Shown: positions 1 to 12,778 of the stretch, piece by piece | Layout of the letters: every line of letters begins with the position of its first letter | How positions within the stretch are numbered: the first letter of the stretch is position 1 | From: Acidimicrobiia bacterium | GTDB taxonomy: Bacteria > Actinomycetota > Acidimicrobiia > UBA2766 | DNA length: 64,000 nt | Direction of reading: 5' to 3' | NCBI GenBank assembly: GCA_020850945.1 | Contig: JADZDR010000049.1 | Coordinates: 1-64,000 of the forward strand | Notes under the pieces: model-generated | Database searches by the model: none | Told to the model about the DNA's origin: nothing | The model's input: the letters and a program-made list of their open reading frames with translations, nothing else | Made by a program: the position numbers and the translations under genes

Positions 1-133
1 ATTCGGCGGAGAAGCCTATCCACTCCCACAGGACCCCGGAACCAGGCCGACATCCCCCGGCCCGGTGTGACGAACACCTCGAATCGCTCGCTACCATTCC
101 CCGCAGTCCGGTCCGGCGAGGAGGGATGTGGAG

Positions 134-1819
134 ATGGAGGACCGTTTCGACGTGATCATCGTCGGTGGGGGTCACAACGGCACGACACTCGCCGCGTACC
201 TCGCCAAGTCGGGACGTTCGGTCTGCGTGCTCGAGTCCCGGCCCGAGTGCGGGGGCGGGCAGGAGAACACGGAGCCGATCCCGGGCTTTCGCATCGACCC
301 GCACGCCACTTACCTGTACGGAGCGGCTGCGCCCGGTTTCGAGCAGCTCGAGCTGGGACGGTTCGGCTACCGCCACGTCCCCTACAGGTCGACGGCAGGG
401 CTCGTGACGTCCGCCGGTGAGGCGGTGAACCTGGGCAGTCGCTGGGATCCCGAGATCGCGACGGAGAACCTCATGCGAGTCGCGCCGGGCAGCCTGGGGA
501 CGGGGATGTTGCTCGGATCCCTCCAGGGCGACCTCGCGACGGAGCTCCTGCGGGCGCTCTTCTGGACGCCCCCCTACCCGGCTGAGTTGGATGTCGACCC
601 CATGGACCTGCCGTGGGCCAAGGTGATGGACAAGTACTTCTCCGGCATGTTCAAGCCGGAGTGGCTCGAGATGAGCCTCGTCGAGCTCCTCGACGAGCTC
701 CTCGACTACGAGCCGCTCAAGACGCTGTACAGCTTCGCCGCCTGGTACTGCGGGGCGCATCCGGCGTGGGAGGGGATGGCGCTCCCCGCCCTGGGCGGGG
801 TCCTCATGTTCGGGCACAGCTCGGGGTCACCGCGGGGCGGGATGCACACCTACGCGCACGCCATCATCCGCTGCGCCCTGCACCACGGCGCCCGCATCGT
901 CACGAACAGCCCGGTCGAGCGCATCCTCGTCGAGAACGGACGGGCCGTCGGTGTCGAGCTCGCCGAAGGGTCGTCCCATCCCGGCAGGAGGATCTACGCG
1001 GACGACTTCGTCGTGTCGGCCGTGGACGTGCAGCACACGTTCCTCCAACTCGTGGACGGCTCCCATACCGACGTGTCCTTCCGCCGGCGCGTGTCGGACA
1101 TCTCCCTCAAGGGCGGCAGCCTCTACGTGGCCTCGGTCGTGTGCCGGGAGCTGCCGCGGTACGGCGACGGTGCGGACGCGTTCCCGATCGAGAAGTACCC
1201 GTCGTGCGTCGTCGTGCCCTGCGACTCACGCGAGGCCAACTTCTTCGCCCAGACCGAAGACGTCTACTCGTTCAACCGGGCGCCGCTGCTCGAGGACGAC
1301 CATCTCACGATGATGGTCTGCACGCACGACGTCTACGATCCCACGCGGGCGCCGGAGGGCTACCACGTCCTCTCACCCATCTACCTCGAGATGCCGCCGC
1401 CCCAGTACGACGTGAGTGGTGCGGCCGGCGTGAACCGCGACAAGGCGGAGATCACCGATGCGGTCCTGCGGGTCCTGCGCACGCACGCGCCGAACATGAC
1501 CGACGCCAACATCGAGCACGTCTTCGTGAACACACCGTACGATTCGGAGTTCCGCAACGCCGGTCTCACGGGCGGCAACTGGTACGCGATCCGCCAGTCC
1601 GCCGACCAGTGGTTCTCGGGCCGGCCCCTGCCCGAGCTGTCCCGATATCGCACGCCGATCGACGACCTCTACCTCTGCAACCAGACCTCGCATCCAGGCG
1701 GCCTCTGCCTCATGGCCGTCCCCTACAACCTCATGCACATCCTCATCGAGGACGGCAAGGTCGATCCCGGGCCGTGGTGGTATCCGGCGCCGTGGCACAT
1801 GCCCGCCCCGGCCGCGTGA
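134..1819 (+). CDS. Phytoene-desaturase-like FAD-dependent oxidoreductase
   Basis: This 561-residue protein opens with a dinucleotide-binding motif, VIIVGGGHNGTTLAAYLA, within the first 25 residues, followed by the acidic end of the second strand (VLESRPECGG). That is the Rossmann FAD site of the COG1233 (phytoene dehydrogenase/NAD(P)-FAD oxidoreductase) family. The C-terminal segment NQTSHPGGLCLMAVPYN resembles the conserved flavin-proximal end of the same family. I chose ATG 134 because GAGGAGGG lies about 8 nt upstream; an in-frame GTG at 128 is too close to that site. The length fits the family. The substrate is unknown: there is no phytoene synthase or other carotenoid gene nearby, so a role in lipid or polyketide oxidation is as likely. 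It converges on the molybdenum enzyme with an 18-nt gap. Confidence 0.8.
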   Translation: MEDRFDVIIVGGGHNGTTLAAYLAKSGRSVCVLESRPECGGGQENTEPIPGFRIDPHATYLYGAAAPGFEQLELGRFGYRHVPYRSTAGLVTSAGEAVNLGSRWDPEIATENLMRVAPGSLGTGMLLGSLQGDLATELLRALFWTPPYPAELDVDPMDLPWAKVMDKYFSGMFKPEWLEMSLVELLDELLDYEPLKTLYSFAAWYCGAHPAWEGMALPALGGVLMFGHSSGSPRGGMHTYAHAIIRCALHHGARIVTNSPVERILVENGRAVGVELAEGSSHPGRRIYADDFVVSAVDVQHTFLQLVDGSHTDVSFRRRVSDISLKGGSLYVASVVCRELPRYGDGADAFPIEKYPSCVVVPCDSREANFFAQTEDVYSFNRAPLLEDDHLTMMVCTHDVYDPTRAPEGYHVLSPIYLEMPPPQYDVSGAAGVNRDKAEITDAVLRVLRTHAPNMTDANIEHVFVNTPYDSEFRNAGLTGGNWYAIRQSADQWFSGRPLPELSRYRTPIDDLYLCNQTSHPGGLCLMAVPYNLMHILIEDGKVDPGPWWYPAPWHMPAPAA

Positions 1820-1837: not shown

Positions 1838-4636
1838 TCAGGCCTTCTCGATCGAGACTCGCGTGTTCCGCATCGTCGTGCAGGGCTGCCACTGGGTCGC
1901 CCAGTAGCTGAGGTGGCCGTACCCTCCCGCGAGGTGCAGCCACTTGATCATCCCCGGTTCGGCATCGTTGGGCCCGGCCCAGTCGGGGAACTGGTAGTTG
2001 TCGAACCCGTTGTACATGACCACCTGGCCCGGTCTGGCCGTGGCGGAGGTCTTCACCGGCACGCGGAACTCGCCGCAGTCGTTGTGGACCCGTACGAGGT
2101 CGTTGTCGACGAGGCCGAGTGAAGCCGCATCCTCGTCGTTGATGACGAGATGAGCCGTGCCGCGATGGGTCTCGAGCATGAGGTCGTTCGAGATGTTGAG
2201 CGAGTGGATGCTCCATCGGTTGTGGCCGCTCGAGACCTGGAACGGATGGTCGCCGCCAATGGCAGGTGGTTCCTTGTGGCACGGCAGGTGCTCGTCCGCT
2301 TCGATGAACCACGGATGGTCGATGAGGAACTGGGCGCGCCGGCTGTACGTGGGGTAGGGCTCGCCGTTCTCGACGTGTTTGCGGAAGGGCACGAACGTCT
2401 CGTCGGGGGAGGGGTCGGTCGCCTGACCGAGGGCGCGGGGGGTGATGCCCAGGGTCTGCCAGCGGTAGTGGCCGACCTCGCGCACGTTGTCGAGGCTCGC
2501 CTCCGCCGGGATCGTGCCGACGAGGGCGGTGTCGCGCAGCATCTCGTCCACGATCGTCTCCGGGTCGGTCCAGACGCCGTTCGCCGTATACGCCGCATGC
2601 ATGTTCGCGGCGTTGAAGACCTGTCCGGTCTGTGCCTTGAACGGGTCGACGCCCCGTGCCTTGGCGCGCTCCTCGACCTTCTCGGCTATACGGCGGAACG
2701 CCTCCCACTCGTCCACGCATTCGCCGGGTGGTTCGACCGCCTTGTCACAGAAGGTGAGGTTCATCACGTGCGTGCTCGGGATGCCGAAGCCGATCTTCTC
2801 GTACTGCTGCGACATGGGCAGGACGATGTCGCTGTGAGCTGCGGTCGCGCTCATCTTGACTTCGAGCGTCACGACCATGCGGAGGAGCGGCCAGAGGTGT
2901 TCGAGGAGCATCTTCGAGCCACCCCGTGTGCGGCGCAGCACGTTCCCGCCACACTCGATGAGGACACGAGGCGGCTGCTCAGCGCGGGGATAGTCGACCG
3001 CCCTCCACCAACCCGACTCGACAGCCTCGTCGAAGTACTCGCGGAACGGACGTGGCATCGAGGGGTCGTGCCACTCCTGTCTCTCCCACGCGTCCTGGTA
3101 TCCGGCGAAGCGGTACCAGAGGAAGACGGGAGGGACGAATCCCATGCCCTGGCCGCCCATGAGTCCACCCCGAGCAGCCTCGATCGAGAAGATCTTCGGT
3201 GTGAGAGTCGGATCGGCCGCGAGCGCCGCATCCATCGTCATGTCGCGCAGATCGAGGATCGCAGCCACGTTCTCGGGACCGCGCTGCGTCTTCAAGGCGA
3301 ACATCATCATGCCGTCGAAGTAGCCCGCGCCCCACGCCCGCATGCCGGTCCCGTGCTTGCCCCAGTTTCCGGTCAGGGCGAGGAGGAGGATCTGTGATCG
3401 CTCGATGAGGTCGCCGTGGTAGTGCTTGGATGCCTGGTTGAGGGAGCCGAGGATGTTCGTCGGTCGGGTGGCGATCTTGCACGCGAGGTCGCGGATGGCG
3501 TCGGCGTGCAGGTTGCAGATCTCGGCCGCGCGCTCGGGTGTGTACTCCTCGAGGCGGGCCTTGACCTGCTCGAAGACGGTTGTCACGGCGCGCGGCCCCG
3601 TGAGCGTCTCGATCGTGAAGGTCCCCTCGAGGGCAGGAGTGACCTCGCCCCACTCGAGGGTGCCACGGGGGGCGTCGACGGGTGCTGCCGTGGCTGCGTC
3701 CCATGCGATGAGCTGCTCCTCGCTGCCGCCCGCGGTGAGATCCGATCGGCGCAGGTAGCGGTTCGTGGCCGGGTCGACGAGGAGCGGGAGATCGGTCTGC
3801 TCCAAGACGAAGTCACGGTCGACGAGGCCTTCGTCGATGACGACCTTGCACATCGCGAGGGCGAGAGCGGCGTCGGTGCCGGGGCGCACGGGCAGGTGCC
3901 CGTCGGCGTTGACGGCCGACGGGCTCACGTCGGGCGCGATCGTCCACACCTCGCAGCCCCGATACCGGGCTTCGGTGATGAAGTGGTAATGGGGGATCCG
4001 TGTATAGGCAGGGTTGCCGAACCAGATGAGGAACACGCCCGAGTGGAACCAGTCGTCGATGCTGCTCACGGGGTCGAACGTGCCCCACGTGAGGTAGTGG
4101 CCGGCCGCGAAGTCGTTCATCTCGGCGTTGAGGTCGGTCGTGAGACCGGCGCAGAGCGCCATGAACTTGCCACGGCCGGCGAGGGCGAGCGTGCCCAGGT
4201 TGCAGCCGGACGGCGCGAGGATCGCCTCGGGACCGATCTCCTCGGCGGCGTCGAGGATCGCGTCGGCAACGTCGGTGCACGCCTCGTCCCAACTGATCCG
4301 CTCCCACCGGCCCTCACCCCGCTCCCCCACACGCCGCAGCGGGTAGAGGACGCGTTCCTCGCTGTCGAGCATGCGGGTCCACCCCATGCCCTTCTGGCAC
4401 CCCATCGGGTTCATGTCGGGGACGCCCTCCATGACCGTGGGGAACGACCCGGCCGACTCCTCGCGGACGACCTTTCCGTTCGCCATGTAGACCTTGAGGG
4501 GACAGTTGCCCGGGTAGCAGTCGATGCAGTGGGATGCCCACTTCACCTCGTCCCACGTCCAGCGGCTCCGGTACGACGCCTCGCTTCCGGCCACTTCCCT
4601 ACCCCGGGTAGTGGTCACGCCGTTGCCGTCCGCCAT
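1838..4636 (-). CDS. NarG-like (type II DMSO reductase family) molybdopterin oxidoreductase
   Basis: The 932-residue protein has an N-terminal [4Fe-4S] motif, HCIDCYPGNC, with a fourth Cys at residue 80 (MNPMGC). It aligns with the H-x3-C-x3-C site of NarG, but has x4 spacing and an extra Cys next to the His. The stretch NDFAAGHYLTWGTFD matches the NarG segment carrying the Asp ligand to molybdenum, and VRPGTDAALALAM is the conserved pterin-binding segment. I infer the Mo-bisPGD type II group (nitrate reductase, ethylbenzene dehydrogenase and similar enzymes). The ATG at 4636 has GAGGAGG 6 nt upstream; an in-frame ATG 51 nt further up lacks a ribosome site. No Tat signal is visible, so it is probably cytoplasmic. 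No Fe-S beta or membrane gamma subunit is encoded next to it. The substrate cannot be read from sequence. Confidence 0.85.
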   Translation of the reverse strand: MADGNGVTTTRGREVAGSEASYRSRWTWDEVKWASHCIDCYPGNCPLKVYMANGKVVREESAGSFPTVMEGVPDMNPMGCQKGMGWTRMLDSEERVLYPLRRVGERGEGRWERISWDEACTDVADAILDAAEEIGPEAILAPSGCNLGTLALAGRGKFMALCAGLTTDLNAEMNDFAAGHYLTWGTFDPVSSIDDWFHSGVFLIWFGNPAYTRIPHYHFITEARYRGCEVWTIAPDVSPSAVNADGHLPVRPGTDAALALAMCKVVIDEGLVDRDFVLEQTDLPLLVDPATNRYLRRSDLTAGGSEEQLIAWDAATAAPVDAPRGTLEWGEVTPALEGTFTIETLTGPRAVTTVFEQVKARLEEYTPERAAEICNLHADAIRDLACKIATRPTNILGSLNQASKHYHGDLIERSQILLLALTGNWGKHGTGMRAWGAGYFDGMMMFALKTQRGPENVAAILDLRDMTMDAALAADPTLTPKIFSIEAARGGLMGGQGMGFVPPVFLWYRFAGYQDAWERQEWHDPSMPRPFREYFDEAVESGWWRAVDYPRAEQPPRVLIECGGNVLRRTRGGSKMLLEHLWPLLRMVVTLEVKMSATAAHSDIVLPMSQQYEKIGFGIPSTHVMNLTFCDKAVEPPGECVDEWEAFRRIAEKVEERAKARGVDPFKAQTGQVFNAANMHAAYTANGVWTDPETIVDEMLRDTALVGTIPAEASLDNVREVGHYRWQTLGITPRALGQATDPSPDETFVPFRKHVENGEPYPTYSRRAQFLIDHPWFIEADEHLPCHKEPPAIGGDHPFQVSSGHNRWSIHSLNISNDLMLETHRGTAHLVINDEDAASLGLVDNDLVRVHNDCGEFRVPVKTSATARPGQVVMYNGFDNYQFPDWAGPNDAEPGMIKWLHLAGGYGHLSYWATQWQPCTTMRNTRVSIEKA

Positions 4637-4687
4637 CAGAGCCTCCTCGGTCGCACAGGCAGAGAAAGCTATCCGATGACCACCCAA

Positions 4688-4729
4688 CTGGGTACCTGAG
4701 CGGCGATATATCGCCGCTCAGGTACCCAG
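4688..4729. repeat. 42-nt perfect palindrome, probable terminator of amt-glnK
   Basis: Two 21-nt arms, 4688-4708 and 4709-4729, are exact reverse complements with no spacer. The arms start with CTGGGTACCTGAGCGG. The element begins 17 nt past the glnK stop on the minus strand and lies 52 nt upstream of the molybdenum-enzyme start. It would form a very stable hairpin at the 3' end of the amt-glnK message. There is no clear T-run after it, so intrinsic termination is not assured. A dimeric-regulator site for the downstream gene is the alternative. Confidence 0.6.
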
Positions 4730-4745: not shown

Positions 4746-6759
<2,014 letters not shown>

Positions 6760-8358: not shown

Positions 8359-9405
8359 TTGGCCCTCCAGACGGTCTGGTTCGCGCTCATAACCGTGTTG
8401 TGGGCGGGCTTCTTCGTGCTCGAGGGATTCGATTTCGGAGTCGGAATGCTCGTACCGGTCCTCGGCCGGGACGACACGGACCGGCGTGTGCTGCGCGCGA
8501 CCGTCGCCCCCGTCTGGGACGGGAACGAGGTGTGGCTCGTCGTGGCCGGCGCCGCGATGTTCGCAGCCTTCCCCGACTGGTACGCGACGATGTTCTCCGC
8601 CTTCTATCTCCCTCTCTTCGCGGTCCTCCTCGGCCTCATCCTGCGGGCCTGCGCCTTCGAGTTCCGTGACAAGTCGACGCACCTCCATTGGCGGCGCACG
8701 TGGGACTGGCTCATGGGCGTCTCCAGTCTCCTCGTGCCCCTCCTCGTCGGCGTTGCTTTCGGGGGACTTCTCGGCGGGCTCCCCATCGACGGCAGCATGG
8801 AGTTCGCCGGTGACTTCACCGATCTCGTGCAGCCGTATGCGCTCTACAGCGGACTCACCTTCGCCTCGCTCTGCCTCGTGCAGGGCTTCGCGTTCCTGCG
8901 TCTCAAGACCGCTGATTCCCTCGCGCGGGCGGCCACGCGGGGGGTTCGTGTGTCCGCGAGCGTCTGTGCGGTACTGGTCGTCGGATTCGTTATCTGGACG
9001 CAGGCCGTGTCGGACCGTGGAGTCATTCCCGGCGCGGGCTTCTGGTTGGCCCTCACGTTCACGGTTGCAGCCGCGATCCTGGCGTGGGAGAAGGAACATG
9101 CCGGCTGGGTGTTCGCGTGCAGTTCGGCCGCGATCGCGTTCACGACGATCGGGTTCTTCGCGACCTTGCACCCCAACCTCATGATCTCCTCGACCGGGCC
9201 GGCCAACAGCATCACGATCGCCGACAGCTCGTCTTCGTACACGCTCACCGTCATGACCGTGATTGCGGCCGTAATGGTGCCCGTGGTCGTGCTCTACCAG
9301 GCGTGGACGTATTGGGTGTTCCGCCAGCGTGTGCGGCGTAGGGACGTGGGTGGCGCGATCGAGGAGGCGGCCTCGACCGGCACGCGAGAGGACGTCTCGC
9401 CGTGA
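8359..9405 (+). CDS. cydB: Cytochrome bd ubiquinol oxidase subunit II
   Basis: The 348-residue subunit II starts LALQTVWFALITVLWAGFFVLEGFDFG, with the family motif FVLEGFDFGVG and then APVWDGNEVWLVVAGAAMF. I place the start at TTG 8359 because the homologous N-terminus begins there and TGAGGGAGTCGAGG lies just upstream. The open frame extends far upstream only because GC-rich DNA lacks stops. Eight to nine hydrophobic segments are visible. It scaffolds the haems of CydA. The stop overlaps the GTG start of cydD by four bases (GTGA), so translation is coupled. Confidence 0.96.
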   Translation: MALQTVWFALITVLWAGFFVLEGFDFGVGMLVPVLGRDDTDRRVLRATVAPVWDGNEVWLVVAGAAMFAAFPDWYATMFSAFYLPLFAVLLGLILRACAFEFRDKSTHLHWRRTWDWLMGVSSLLVPLLVGVAFGGLLGGLPIDGSMEFAGDFTDLVQPYALYSGLTFASLCLVQGFAFLRLKTADSLARAATRGVRVSASVCAVLVVGFVIWTQAVSDRGVIPGAGFWLALTFTVAAAILAWEKEHAGWVFACSSAAIAFTTIGFFATLHPNLMISSTGPANSITIADSSSSYTLTVMTVIAAVMVPVVVLYQAWTYWVFRQRVRRRDVGGAIEEAASTGTREDVSP

Positions 9406-11138
9406 CGGACACCGCAGATCGCCGGCTCAGGCCATTCGACCGCCGTCTCCTGCGTCGCGTCCGTGCCGTGCGGCGCGTTCTCGCCGTCGACATCGCCGCC
9501 GGTCTGGCCGGCACCGTGCTCCTCCTGGCACAGGCGACCCTGCTCGCGACGGCAGTCTCCGTCGTGGTGGAACCACGAGGACATGCTGTGGCCGGCCTGC
9601 TCGCGACCCTCGCCGCGGTCGTGGTCATCCGGGCCGGTCTCGCGTGGACGGTCGAAGTGAGCGGGCGACGCGCAGCGACGACCGTCATGTCGGAGCTGCG
9701 CCGCGACCTCGTCGCCTTGCGGCTGCGTCCGGAGGACGGGGGCGGCCGGGACGCCCCCACTCACGAAGGCGCGAACAGCGAGATCGTCATGTCGGCGGTG
9801 CAGGGTGTGGACGGACTCGAGACGTATCTCGCCCGTTACCTGCCACAGGTCGTTCTCGCTGTGACGGTGCCGGTCGCCGTCCTCGTCTGGAGCGCAGCCG
9901 TCGACCTCACTTCGACACTCGTCATGCTCGTCACACTCCCCGTCGTACCGCTGTTCATGGTCCTCATCGGCCGCTCAGCGGCAGCGCGGGCACGCGCGAA
10001 CTGGGAGGCCCTCCTCGCCCTCTCGGCGCATTTCCTCGACGTCGTACGTGGCCTTCCCACGCTGCGAGCCTTCAACCGGGGGCGGGCACAGGTGACCAGG
10101 ATCGCCGAGACCACCGACGCGTACCGGCGCACGACGATGGGCACGCTGCGCCTCGCCTTCCTGTCGGGACTCGTGCTCGACTTCGCCGCCACCCTGTCCA
10201 CAGCCCTCGTCGCTGTGACGCTCGGCGTGCGGCTCGTGGGAGGGACCCTCGGTCTGCGACCCGCGCTGACCGTGCTCCTGCTCGTACCGGAGCTGTACGC
10301 CCCGGTCCGGGCGCTCGGCACCCTCTTCCACGCGAGCGCGGACGGACTCGCCGCGACCGAACGCATGCTCGGGGCGCTCGACGCGGGCGACACGCCGCGT
10401 GAGCCGACGGCCGCACAACCCCGTCTTCTGCCACTGGTTCCACCGGCCCCGCCCGTGTCGCTGCGCGGGGTGACAGTGACTTTCGCCGCCCGAAGCAGGG
10501 CGGCACTCGCCGGGGTCGACCTCGAGGTCGGCCCCGGCGAGCTGGTCGCGGTTCTCGGTCCGAGTGGAGCCGGGAAGACCACTCTTGCCCGCGTCGTGCT
10601 CGGTTTGACTCAGCCCGAGACCGGAGCCGTGGAGATCGACGGCATGTCCCCGGTCACCTGTGGACTGGACGCGTGGCGTCGCCGACTCGCATGGCTACCT
10701 CAGCACCCGTGTCTCCTCACGGCGCCGATCAGCGACAACATCTCGCTGGGACGGCCCCACGCGGGCCGGACCGAGGTCGCCGAGGCCGCGAAGCGGGCGG
10801 GCGCACACGAGTTCATCTGCCGCCTCGCTCAGGGCTACGACACCGTCGTCGGGGCGGGGGGTGTGCGCCTGTCACCGGGCGAGCAGCGGCGCGTCGGGCT
10901 TGCCCGCGCCCTCCTCCGTGGCGCACCCGTGCTCGTCCTGGATGAGCCGACCGCCCATGTCGACCGGGAGACGGCACGGGCGATCGCGATGACCCTGGAC
11001 CGGCTCCGCGGCACGTGCTCGACGCTCGTGATCACCCACGACTCCGACGTGGCCGCCGTCGCCGACCGTGTCGTGCATCTCGAGGGCGGCTGCATCCGCA
11101 CACCTGCGAGCGGGGCGGCGGCGGGAGTGGCACGATGA
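9402..11138 (+). CDS. cydD: Thiol reductant ABC exporter subunit CydD
   Basis: The 578-residue half-transporter has an N-terminal six-helix membrane domain (about residues 20-310) and a C-terminal ATPase domain. The ATPase has Walker A GPSGAGKTT, a signature reading LSPGEQ in place of LSGGQ, Walker B VLVLDEPTA and the H-loop THDSD. CydDC exports cysteine or glutathione (and interacts with haem), which is needed to assemble cytochrome bd. Its position directly after cydB supports the assignment over other ABC exporters. The GTG start overlaps the cydB stop, and its own stop overlaps the cydC ATG. Confidence 0.93.
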   Translation: MTDTADRRLRPFDRRLLRRVRAVRRVLAVDIAAGLAGTVLLLAQATLLATAVSVVVEPRGHAVAGLLATLAAVVVIRAGLAWTVEVSGRRAATTVMSELRRDLVALRLRPEDGGGRDAPTHEGANSEIVMSAVQGVDGLETYLARYLPQVVLAVTVPVAVLVWSAAVDLTSTLVMLVTLPVVPLFMVLIGRSAAARARANWEALLALSAHFLDVVRGLPTLRAFNRGRAQVTRIAETTDAYRRTTMGTLRLAFLSGLVLDFAATLSTALVAVTLGVRLVGGTLGLRPALTVLLLVPELYAPVRALGTLFHASADGLAATERMLGALDAGDTPREPTAAQPRLLPLVPPAPPVSLRGVTVTFAARSRAALAGVDLEVGPGELVAVLGPSGAGKTTLARVVLGLTQPETGAVEIDGMSPVTCGLDAWRRRLAWLPQHPCLLTAPISDNISLGRPHAGRTEVAEAAKRAGAHEFICRLAQGYDTVVGAGGVRLSPGEQRRVGLARALLRGAPVLVLDEPTAHVDRETARAIAMTLDRLRGTCSTLVITHDSDVAAVADRVVHLEGGCIRTPASGAAAGVAR

Positions 11139-12778
11139 TCCGCCGCATGTGCGAGCTCGCAGGCCTGCGCCCGCGCCGGTTGCTCGTGCCCGTCGCCCTC
11201 GGGACCATCTCCGTCGTCGCGGGCGCGGCGCTCGTCGGCATCGCCGGCTACCTCATCTGCCGGGCGGCGCAGCAGCCGCCGATCCTCTCGCTCACCGTCG
11301 CCATGGTTGCCGTACGCGCACTTGCGTTCCTCCGGCCGGGTGCCCGCTACGGCGAGCGACTCGCCGCGCACGACCTCGCGTTCCGGTGTCTGGGACGGTT
11401 GCGCACCCGCGTCTTCAGTGCTCTCGAGCCGCTCGCGCCGGCGGGAGTCGAGAGCTATCGGGACGGTGAGCTCCTGAGTCGTGTCGTCGCCGACGTCGAC
11501 TCCATGCAGGATCTCGCGGTTCGAGTCGCCGTGCCGGCCGGCACGGCGGCAGGGGCGGGTCTCGTGCTCGTGGCAGGTGTCGGCGCAGTATTCGTACCGG
11601 TCGGACTCGTGCTCGGCGTCGGACTCGTGTGTGCCGCAGTCGGACCGCCCCTTCTCGCCGCCCGAGTCGTAACCCGCACGGCTCGCCGCCAGGCCGGGCT
11701 GCGCGCGGGGCTCACGTCCGACCTCGTCGAGATCCTCGACGCGGCCGAGGAGATCTGGTTGAACGAGGCTGACGGGCGGGCACTCGCCCGCGTCGAGGCC
11801 GACGACGCTGCCCTCGTCGACGCCGCGTTGCGCGATGCCCGTGGCGCCGGCCTCGCCGACGCGTGCGGTGTGGCCATCGCCGGCATCACGACAGTCGTGG
11901 CGCTGGGCGTGACGAGTGCTGCCGCCGCCGCCGGGCGTCTCGACGCGCTCGCCGTTGCCCCCCTCACACTCGTCACCCTCGCCGCCTTCGAGGCGGTGCT
12001 GCCGCTGGCGGCGGCGGCACGCGCCATGCCCGGCCTCGTTACGGCGGCTCACCGGGTCCTCGACCTCGTCGACACCCGGACCGGAGTCGTCGATCCGGCC
12101 CGTCCCCTCGACATGCCGACAGCTCCGGAACACCGGCGTGCACCGCAAATCCGCGTGAGGCAGCCGCGCGTCGAGCGTCGCGCAGGGGTGAGGCTGCTCG
12201 ACGAAGTGTCCTTCGACCTCGAACCGCATGCGCGTGTCGTCATCGCGGGACCTTCCGGCTCGGGTAAGACGACTCTCGCCCACGTCCTCGTCCGGTTTCT
12301 CGAGCGTGACGGGGGCGAGGTGCGCCTGGACGGACACGACGTGCGTGCTCACCGGGCGGAGGACGTGCGCCGCACCGTCCTCCTCTCCGCCCAGGTCCCG
12401 CACGTCTTCGACTCGACAGTCCGCGAGAACGTCGTGCTCGCCCACCCCGGCGCATCCGACTCCGACATCCTCGCCGCCCTCGCCCACGCGCAACTCGGCG
12501 ACTGGGTCGAGGCTCTGCCCGACGGTCTCGACACGCGTGTCGGGGAGGGTGGCCGCACGCTATCGGGGGGTGAGCGGCAGCGCCTCGCCCTCGCCCGTTC
12601 CCTCCTGGCCGACTCGCCGGTGTTCATCTTCGACGAGCCCACGGCCCATCTCGACGCCACCGCCGCCCACGCCCTTCTCGACGACTTGTGGGGGGCGACG
12701 GAGGGGCGGTCCGTCCTCCTGATCACGCACGGTGACCCCGGCCCATTCGGCGGGTGCGTGCGGGTCGTGACCGGCTAG
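11135..12778 (+). CDS. cydC: Thiol reductant ABC exporter subunit CydC
   Basis: The 547-residue partner of CydD starts MIRRMCELAGLRPRRLL at an ATG inside the ATGA overlap with cydD. The membrane domain spans about residues 15-300. The ATPase domain carries Walker A GPSGSGKTT, signature LSGGERQR, Walker B VFIFDEPTAHLD and H-loop ITHGD. CydC and CydD form the heterodimeric exporter. As in mycobacteria and Bacillus, all four genes sit in one operon. It ends 13 nt before the convergent epimerase gene. Confidence 0.93.
   Translation: MIRRMCELAGLRPRRLLVPVALGTISVVAGAALVGIAGYLICRAAQQPPILSLTVAMVAVRALAFLRPGARYGERLAAHDLAFRCLGRLRTRVFSALEPLAPAGVESYRDGELLSRVVADVDSMQDLAVRVAVPAGTAAGAGLVLVAGVGAVFVPVGLVLGVGLVCAAVGPPLLAARVVTRTARRQAGLRAGLTSDLVEILDAAEEIWLNEADGRALARVEADDAALVDAALRDARGAGLADACGVAIAGITTVVALGVTSAAAAAGRLDALAVAPLTLVTLAAFEAVLPLAAAARAMPGLVTAAHRVLDLVDTRTGVVDPARPLDMPTAPEHRRAPQIRVRQPRVERRAGVRLLDEVSFDLEPHARVVIAGPSGSGKTTLAHVLVRFLERDGGEVRLDGHDVRAHRAEDVRRTVLLSAQVPHVFDSTVRENVVLAHPGASDSDILAALAHAQLGDWVEALPDGLDTRVGEGGRTLSGGERQRLALARSLLADSPVFIFDEPTAHLDATAAHALLDDLWGATEGRSVLLITHGDPGPFGGCVRVVTG

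Follow-up and report, generated by a model that had tools for sequence, protein, structure and literature searches.

A putative EBDH/S25DH-like molybdenum hydroxylase alpha subunit and its candidate beta-gamma partners in an Acidimicrobiia genome

The window analyzed here is a 64,000-nucleotide stretch of an Acidimicrobiia genome, and its first base is also base 1 of contig C49. Near this end, the minus strand carries a real and intact open reading frame that begins with ATG and encodes the molybdenum enzyme alpha subunit that we refer to as the query (Table 1). A P-II gene (4746-5084) lies upstream on the same strand, and a perfect 42-bp palindrome (4688-4729; two 21-bp arms with no loop, identified by eye) is found between the end of that gene and the alpha start, where it could act as a terminator or an operator. 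Conserved synteny with the P-II gene was rejected, as the arrangement was not found at the 32 orthologue loci described below. The convergent neighbor of the query encodes a flavoprotein. Elsewhere in the genome (L063), a 64% paralogue of this flavoprotein (8853-10523) is followed by a more distant one (10636-12255), and these genes are divergent from another EbdA-like alpha gene, on contig C74. The flavoprotein-alpha pairing is thus repeated within the genome, but it was absent from all 32 orthologue loci, and the flavoprotein was rejected as a conserved partner on that basis. No beta or gamma gene is located beside the query, one flank of which ends 1.8 kb away at the end of the contig.

Table 1. 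Positions of genes and predicted functional sites in the window
Feature	Position	Strand	Remarks
EbdA/S25DH-like Mo hydroxylase catalytic (alpha) subunit (predicted)	1838..4636	-	932 aa; PF00384 + PF01568, TIGR03479 and 2ivf_A matches
GAGGAGG, likely ribosome-binding site of the alpha gene	4642..4648	-	Read from the sequence; five bases upstream of ATG
FS0 motif H36-C37-I-D-C40-Y-P-G-N-C45 (codons 36-45)	4502..4531	-	H36, C40 and C45 in 116/116 alphas; C37 in 89/116
C80, fourth FS0 ligand position (GCQKG)	4397..4399	-	116/116 alphas
G144, aligned to EbdA H192	4205..4207	-	Gly in 22/22 query-type rows
D175, Mo ligand position (EbdA D223)	4112..4114	-	36/36 alphas
K404 (EbdA K450 column; partner of the Mo-ligand Asp in S25DH)	3425..3427	-	36/36 alphas; role as described in excerpts of PMC6153880
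CrtI/CrtO-like FAD oxidoreductase, convergent neighbor	128..1819	+	Functional link only suggested

The initial annotation described the query as a NarG-type molybdenum enzyme. Pfam searches identified Molybdopterin (PF00384) and Molydop_binding (PF01568) domains, and the type II DMSO reductase alpha profile TIGR03479 matched over nearly the full length of the protein (796 bits, E 4.5e-239; under the curated cut-off of 984.75). The query also scored under the curated cut-offs of the EbdA equivalog NF042978 (710 bits; cut-off 2000) and of the NarG profile TIGR01580 (203 bits; cut-off 1084). Its best PDB sequence match was 2ivf_A, which is EbdA (1e-203, residues 14-932). The EbdA match extended over the full length with 682 bits, whereas that to E. 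coli NarG reached about 168 bits and was split into four pieces. We used Foldseek with an AlphaFold2 model of the query (36 window and locus sequences as input; mean pLDDT 86.6) and again found 2ivf_A as the best match, with a TM score of 0.93 by query length and 37% identity in the fold alignment. Perchlorate reductase (TM about 0.85) and NarG (0.74-0.78) both ranked below it. Phylogenetic analysis within the type II enzymes placed the query inside an EbdA-side clade of 35 rows (SH-aLRT 99, obtained with a quick method and a long EbdA branch). By its sequence, the query is an EbdA-type alpha and not a NarG-type alpha, and its identity as a NarG orphan was rejected on the bit scores and on a NarG profile score far under the cut-off.

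Comparison with the 83% identical orthologue L021 gave a dN of 0.125 and a dS of 0.87, and the resulting dN/dS of about 0.14 indicates that the query gene is under purifying selection. The alpha is conserved as an EBDH/S25DH-like protein, and it is probably functional. Because it falls under the curated cut-offs and has no Tat feature, we do not file it as EbdA or S25DH proper. Literature searches for EBDH, S25DH and AhyA in Acidimicrobiia, Actinobacteria, Dehalococcoidia and Chloroflexi returned nothing specific to the clade, which may still be described, and one related paper (PMC13170169). A plasmid search for named relatives retrieved five records that cover >80% of the query, none with >33% identity.

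The NarG-like Mo-ligand Asp that had been proposed is present as D175, and both D175 and K404 were invariant. G144 occupies the column of EbdA H192, which we take to be the EBDH active-site His. Excerpts of PMC6153880 describe S25DH as having its Mo-ligand Asp held by Lys450 and as lacking the active-site His of EBDH. The invariant Asp and Lys together with Gly in the H192 column point to S25DH-like C-H hydroxylation, and not to a substrate.

The query has approximately 21 residues ahead of its conserved Y-R-x-R-W core and no Tat signal, in agreement with the initial annotation. Such absence is general in the clade, since nearly all near relatives also appear by eye to have no Tat signal. We surveyed the N-termini of 60 of the 67 alpha ORFs, the remaining seven being off the motif pattern or without an N-terminus. 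A loose twin-arginine pattern matched 10 of the 60, including the query, but in the query the match falls before the start codon. The hydropathy test, which detected the ClrA and Haloferax enzyme controls and had no negative control set, was passed by four of the 60 (L023, L025, L039 and L028), and inspection by eye suggests that these passes are mostly due to translated DNA ahead of the likely start. Given the lack of an export signal, we predict a cytoplasmic location for the complex.

The absence of adjoining beta and gamma genes does not extend to the genome, which is 3.9 Mb in 97 contigs and 98.5% complete. We found seven EbdA-like alphas, consisting of the query and six others at 45-52% identity, and exactly one EbdB-like beta (C74:52676-53644; 453 bits, under its curated cut-off of 480.7), which matches 2ivf_B along almost its entire length (2e-122). 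This beta is adjoined by an EB_dh gamma that matches 2ivf_C at 3e-18. A nitrate-reductase-delta-type chaperone (PF02613) is located beside the beta and gamma genes, and the three are flanked by two alphas. The description of the query as an orphan thus applies to its neighborhood but not to its genome: a beta and a gamma are present on C74, away from the gene, and their pairing with the query is predicted. Because the EbdB-like beta is well inside C74, it is not just across a contig gap from the query, unless the assembly lacks a second beta. Further Fer4_11-type betas occur on C35, C68 and C70 with lower EbdB scores, and the alphas near them have open frames of about 1,200-1,310 residues. The alphas on C68 (L067, 9442-12945) and C70 (L068, 5346-8948) are type II enzymes with twin-arginine-like N-termini, each with a beta and an EB_dh gamma of its own close by. 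The C68 alpha is close to Kuenenia nitrite oxidoreductase (1426 bits against NxrA) and is possibly a nitrite oxidoreductase itself.

We scanned one genome per species for 84,980 species and recovered 32 orthologue loci with 46-83% identity in the best segment. The hosts are Acidimicrobiia, Chloroflexota, Proteobacteria and bins labelled Acidobacteria. Beta genes were found near the orthologues at L026 (71%), L052 (75%), L030, L033, L035, L037, L044 and L048, and directly adjoined close orthologues at L026, L052, L037 and L044. Alpha and beta genes were then counted in the query genome and in 21 orthologue genomes, which contain 22 of the 32 loci (all except L031, L032, L039, L040, L042, L043, L045, L046, L048 and L049). 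Alphas outnumbered betas in 19 of the 22 genomes, the exceptions being G013, G017 and G019. The total of 142 alphas comprises matches at E <= 1e-150 and the seven alphas of the query genome, and thus includes fragments and omits more distant alphas. The corresponding 55 betas were hand-picked. All scored 330 bits or more, except for a single 207-bit piece located where a contig ends. NarH/Nxr-type and weaker matches were dropped, a G007 gene found in two fragments was counted once, and the pieces of a broken G017 beta were left out. With flanks cut by contig ends scored as having no beta, a beta was present within 5 kb of 14 of the 28 query-type alphas, and 58 of 94 alphas at 43-52% identity had none within this distance. 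Close orthologues beside a beta had been named in advance as the finding that would refute the initial interpretation and indicate simple local gene loss. Such orthologues exist, which counts against that interpretation, but simple loss does not follow, because a large number of alphas seems to draw on a small number of beta-gamma modules. At L027 (15330-18742), an Acidimicrobiia bin carries a distant alpha that is split over several frames with a gamma downstream; either the gene is broken or the assembly is at fault.

An EbdB-like beta was present in every genome with an orthologue that we searched (21/21) and in the query genome. Among 149 genomes of the class, with at most five alpha candidates scored per genome, the alpha (E <= 1e-200) was found in three and the EbdB-like beta (E <= 1e-95) in exactly those three. 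The chance of this coincidence is about 1 in 540,000 if genomes are independent, and two of the three positives belong to one family. In a search of four genomes of the order, one had no alpha, and that genome also had no beta. These patterns bear on whether the query could function as a stand-alone alpha, either as a hydratase-type enzyme like acetylene hydratase or by passing electrons directly to ferredoxin or a flavoprotein. The missing local beta, the 14 of 28 query-type alphas without a beta within 5 kb, and the convergent flavoprotein, whose 64% paralogue adjoins another alpha, are all consistent with such a function. We nevertheless regard it as unlikely, given that the beta accompanies the alpha in all of these genomes and was not detected in the 146 alpha-less genomes of the class, that it lies directly beside the four orthologues named above, that the FS0 positions are invariant, and that the flavoprotein was seen at none of the orthologue loci. 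The full EbdB-like beta and EbdC-like gamma in the genome likewise argue against the different electron carrier that had been suggested, and in favor of a complex between the query and the C74 subunits.

We confirmed the sequence W-A-S-H-C-I-D-C-Y-P-G-N-C in the query protein. The motif had been correctly spelled as H-C-x2-C-x4-C, but it does not replace H-x3-C, because His36 and Cys40 keep that spacing. The differences are the extra Cys37 and the four residues before the third ligand, compared to three in Thermus NarG and the Haloferax enzyme and five in EbdA. All 22 query-type rows have H-C-x2-C-x4-C, so the motif is not due to chance. In a first alignment of 36 alphas (seven from the query genome and 29 from other records), H36, C40, C45 and C80 were constant and C37 was variable. 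We enlarged this set to 116 with 80 more of the 142 alphas, selected on the position of the match without regard to the motif. The four ligand positions remained invariant, and C37 was substituted by T, L, A, I, H, P, N, S, F or M in 27 sequences. This natural variation indicates that the canonical set of one His and three Cys is constrained and that the added Cys is accessory.

Other branches of the DMSO reductases usually have C-x2-C spacing, and Cys37 occurs in most of the alphas, including every query-type row. FS0 could on these grounds be bound by Cys37 in place of His36, giving a four-Cys site (C-x2-C-x4-C...C) with an altered redox potential. We consider this quite improbable and rejected it on the variation among the 116 alphas, in which His36 is never replaced. 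The FS0 His ligand is also apparently fully conserved across subfamily II, according to an excerpt of PMC8840923. Residues 39-43 of the FS0 loop have pLDDT values <50, so the model says nothing on ligand geometry. The proposal of an altered Fe-S cluster is not upheld, and the query is predicted to have an FS0 with the usual ligand positions, plus a spare Cys that is typical of the clade.

Other FS0 variants were observed. In the alignment, the motifs of the C68 and C70 alphas have no His, so it is these two alphas that truly break the His rule in this genome. A separate subgroup of alphas (about 35-38%), represented by L025 (11155-15649) and L046 (3320-7733), has the motif H-x4-C-x3-C (HLRVNCISAC and HTRVNCISAC) with one additional residue between His and Cys, and its members adjoin their own gamma and beta. 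Distant alphas at L132, L133 and L135-L138 have an export-signal-like hydrophobic stretch upstream and by eye all lack C37, as do some alphas without the stretch. Cys37 may be confined to signal-less alphas.

The query could also be a decaying leftover of a local alpha-beta-gamma operon that lost its other genes recently. This is very improbable and was rejected on the dN/dS: orthologues elsewhere adjoin a beta, but the query frame is intact, all cofactor positions are retained, and orthologues L022 and L024 likewise have no local beta.

Together, these results make it likely that the query is the alpha subunit of a cytoplasmic, EBDH/S25DH-like, O2-independent hydroxylase that uses the shared C74 beta-gamma pair. 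Such an enzyme would use water and no O2 to hydroxylate a C-H bond of the hydrocarbon or isoprenoid type at Mo-bis-MGD, with Asp175 as the Mo ligand held by Lys404. Electrons would exit through the normal His plus three Cys FS0 to the EbdB-like beta and then to the EbdC-like gamma, with the single C74 beta-gamma pair shared in trans by the query and the six sister alphas of its genome. Against sharing, the C74 beta may serve only the two adjoining alphas. Against the reading as a whole, the co-occurrence within the class comes from three positive genomes, and the activity and complex of the clade are predictions from sequence. The scores of the query and the C74 beta under the TIGR03479 and beta profile cut-offs, the lack of the Tat signal seen in S25DH1, and the three genomes in which alphas do not outnumber betas also weigh against it. 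The non-respiratory role once suggested for the query is supported in part, because its nearest characterized enzymes, EBDH and S25DH, are catabolic hydroxylases.

What appeared to be an orphan with an odd cluster may instead be an instance of subunit sharing, as previously reported for one cholesterol degrader. The excess of alphas over betas seen in that organism is found here in genomes of several phyla. More tentatively, we can envisage that Acidimicrobiia, Chloroflexota and marine Proteobacteria possess an uncharacterized branch of cytoplasmic, O2-independent Mo hydroxylases in which one or a few beta-gamma modules accept as many as twelve alphas to provide a combinatorial substrate repertoire, and in which the spare Cys tunes or switches FS0 in the reducing cytoplasm. 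If active in the cytoplasm, these enzymes would give mostly uncultured bacteria an O2-independent entry into hydrocarbons, terpenoids or sterols. Co-expression with a suitable beta-gamma pair would also make them available as new alphas for regiospecific hydroxylation.

Compared with known systems, the query shares subfamily II membership, the Asp ligand and an FS0 with His with NarG, but is 932 residues long versus about 1240. EbdA of Aromatoleum aromaticum (2ivf_A) is homologous over the full length and has the same Mo-site Asp and Lys and the same His plus three Cys FS0 positions, and the query genome encodes homologues of its beta and gamma subunits. In contrast to EbdA, the query has no Tat signal, carries Gly in the H192 column and the extra Cys37, has an FS0 loop that is one residue shorter, and is not adjoined by beta and gamma genes. 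S25DH of Sterolibacterium denitrificans, as described in excerpts of PMC6153880, resembles the query in its Asp-Lys pair and in having no active-site His. Excerpts of PMC6016249 report eight alphas in S. denitrificans that share fewer beta-gamma genes, similar to the many alphas and fewer beta-gamma pairs seen here. S25DH1 is alpha1-beta3-gamma3, and the highly active enzyme required all three subunits and the chaperone. According to the same source, the S25DH1 alpha bears a Tat signal and a periplasmic location has been proposed for it, whereas the query has no such signal. Finally, AhyA, the alkane C2-methylene hydroxylase, is comparable in its distribution: Chloroflexota hold putative ahyA genes (mean 1.44 per genome, from the description in part of PMC13170169) and also many of the query orthologues.
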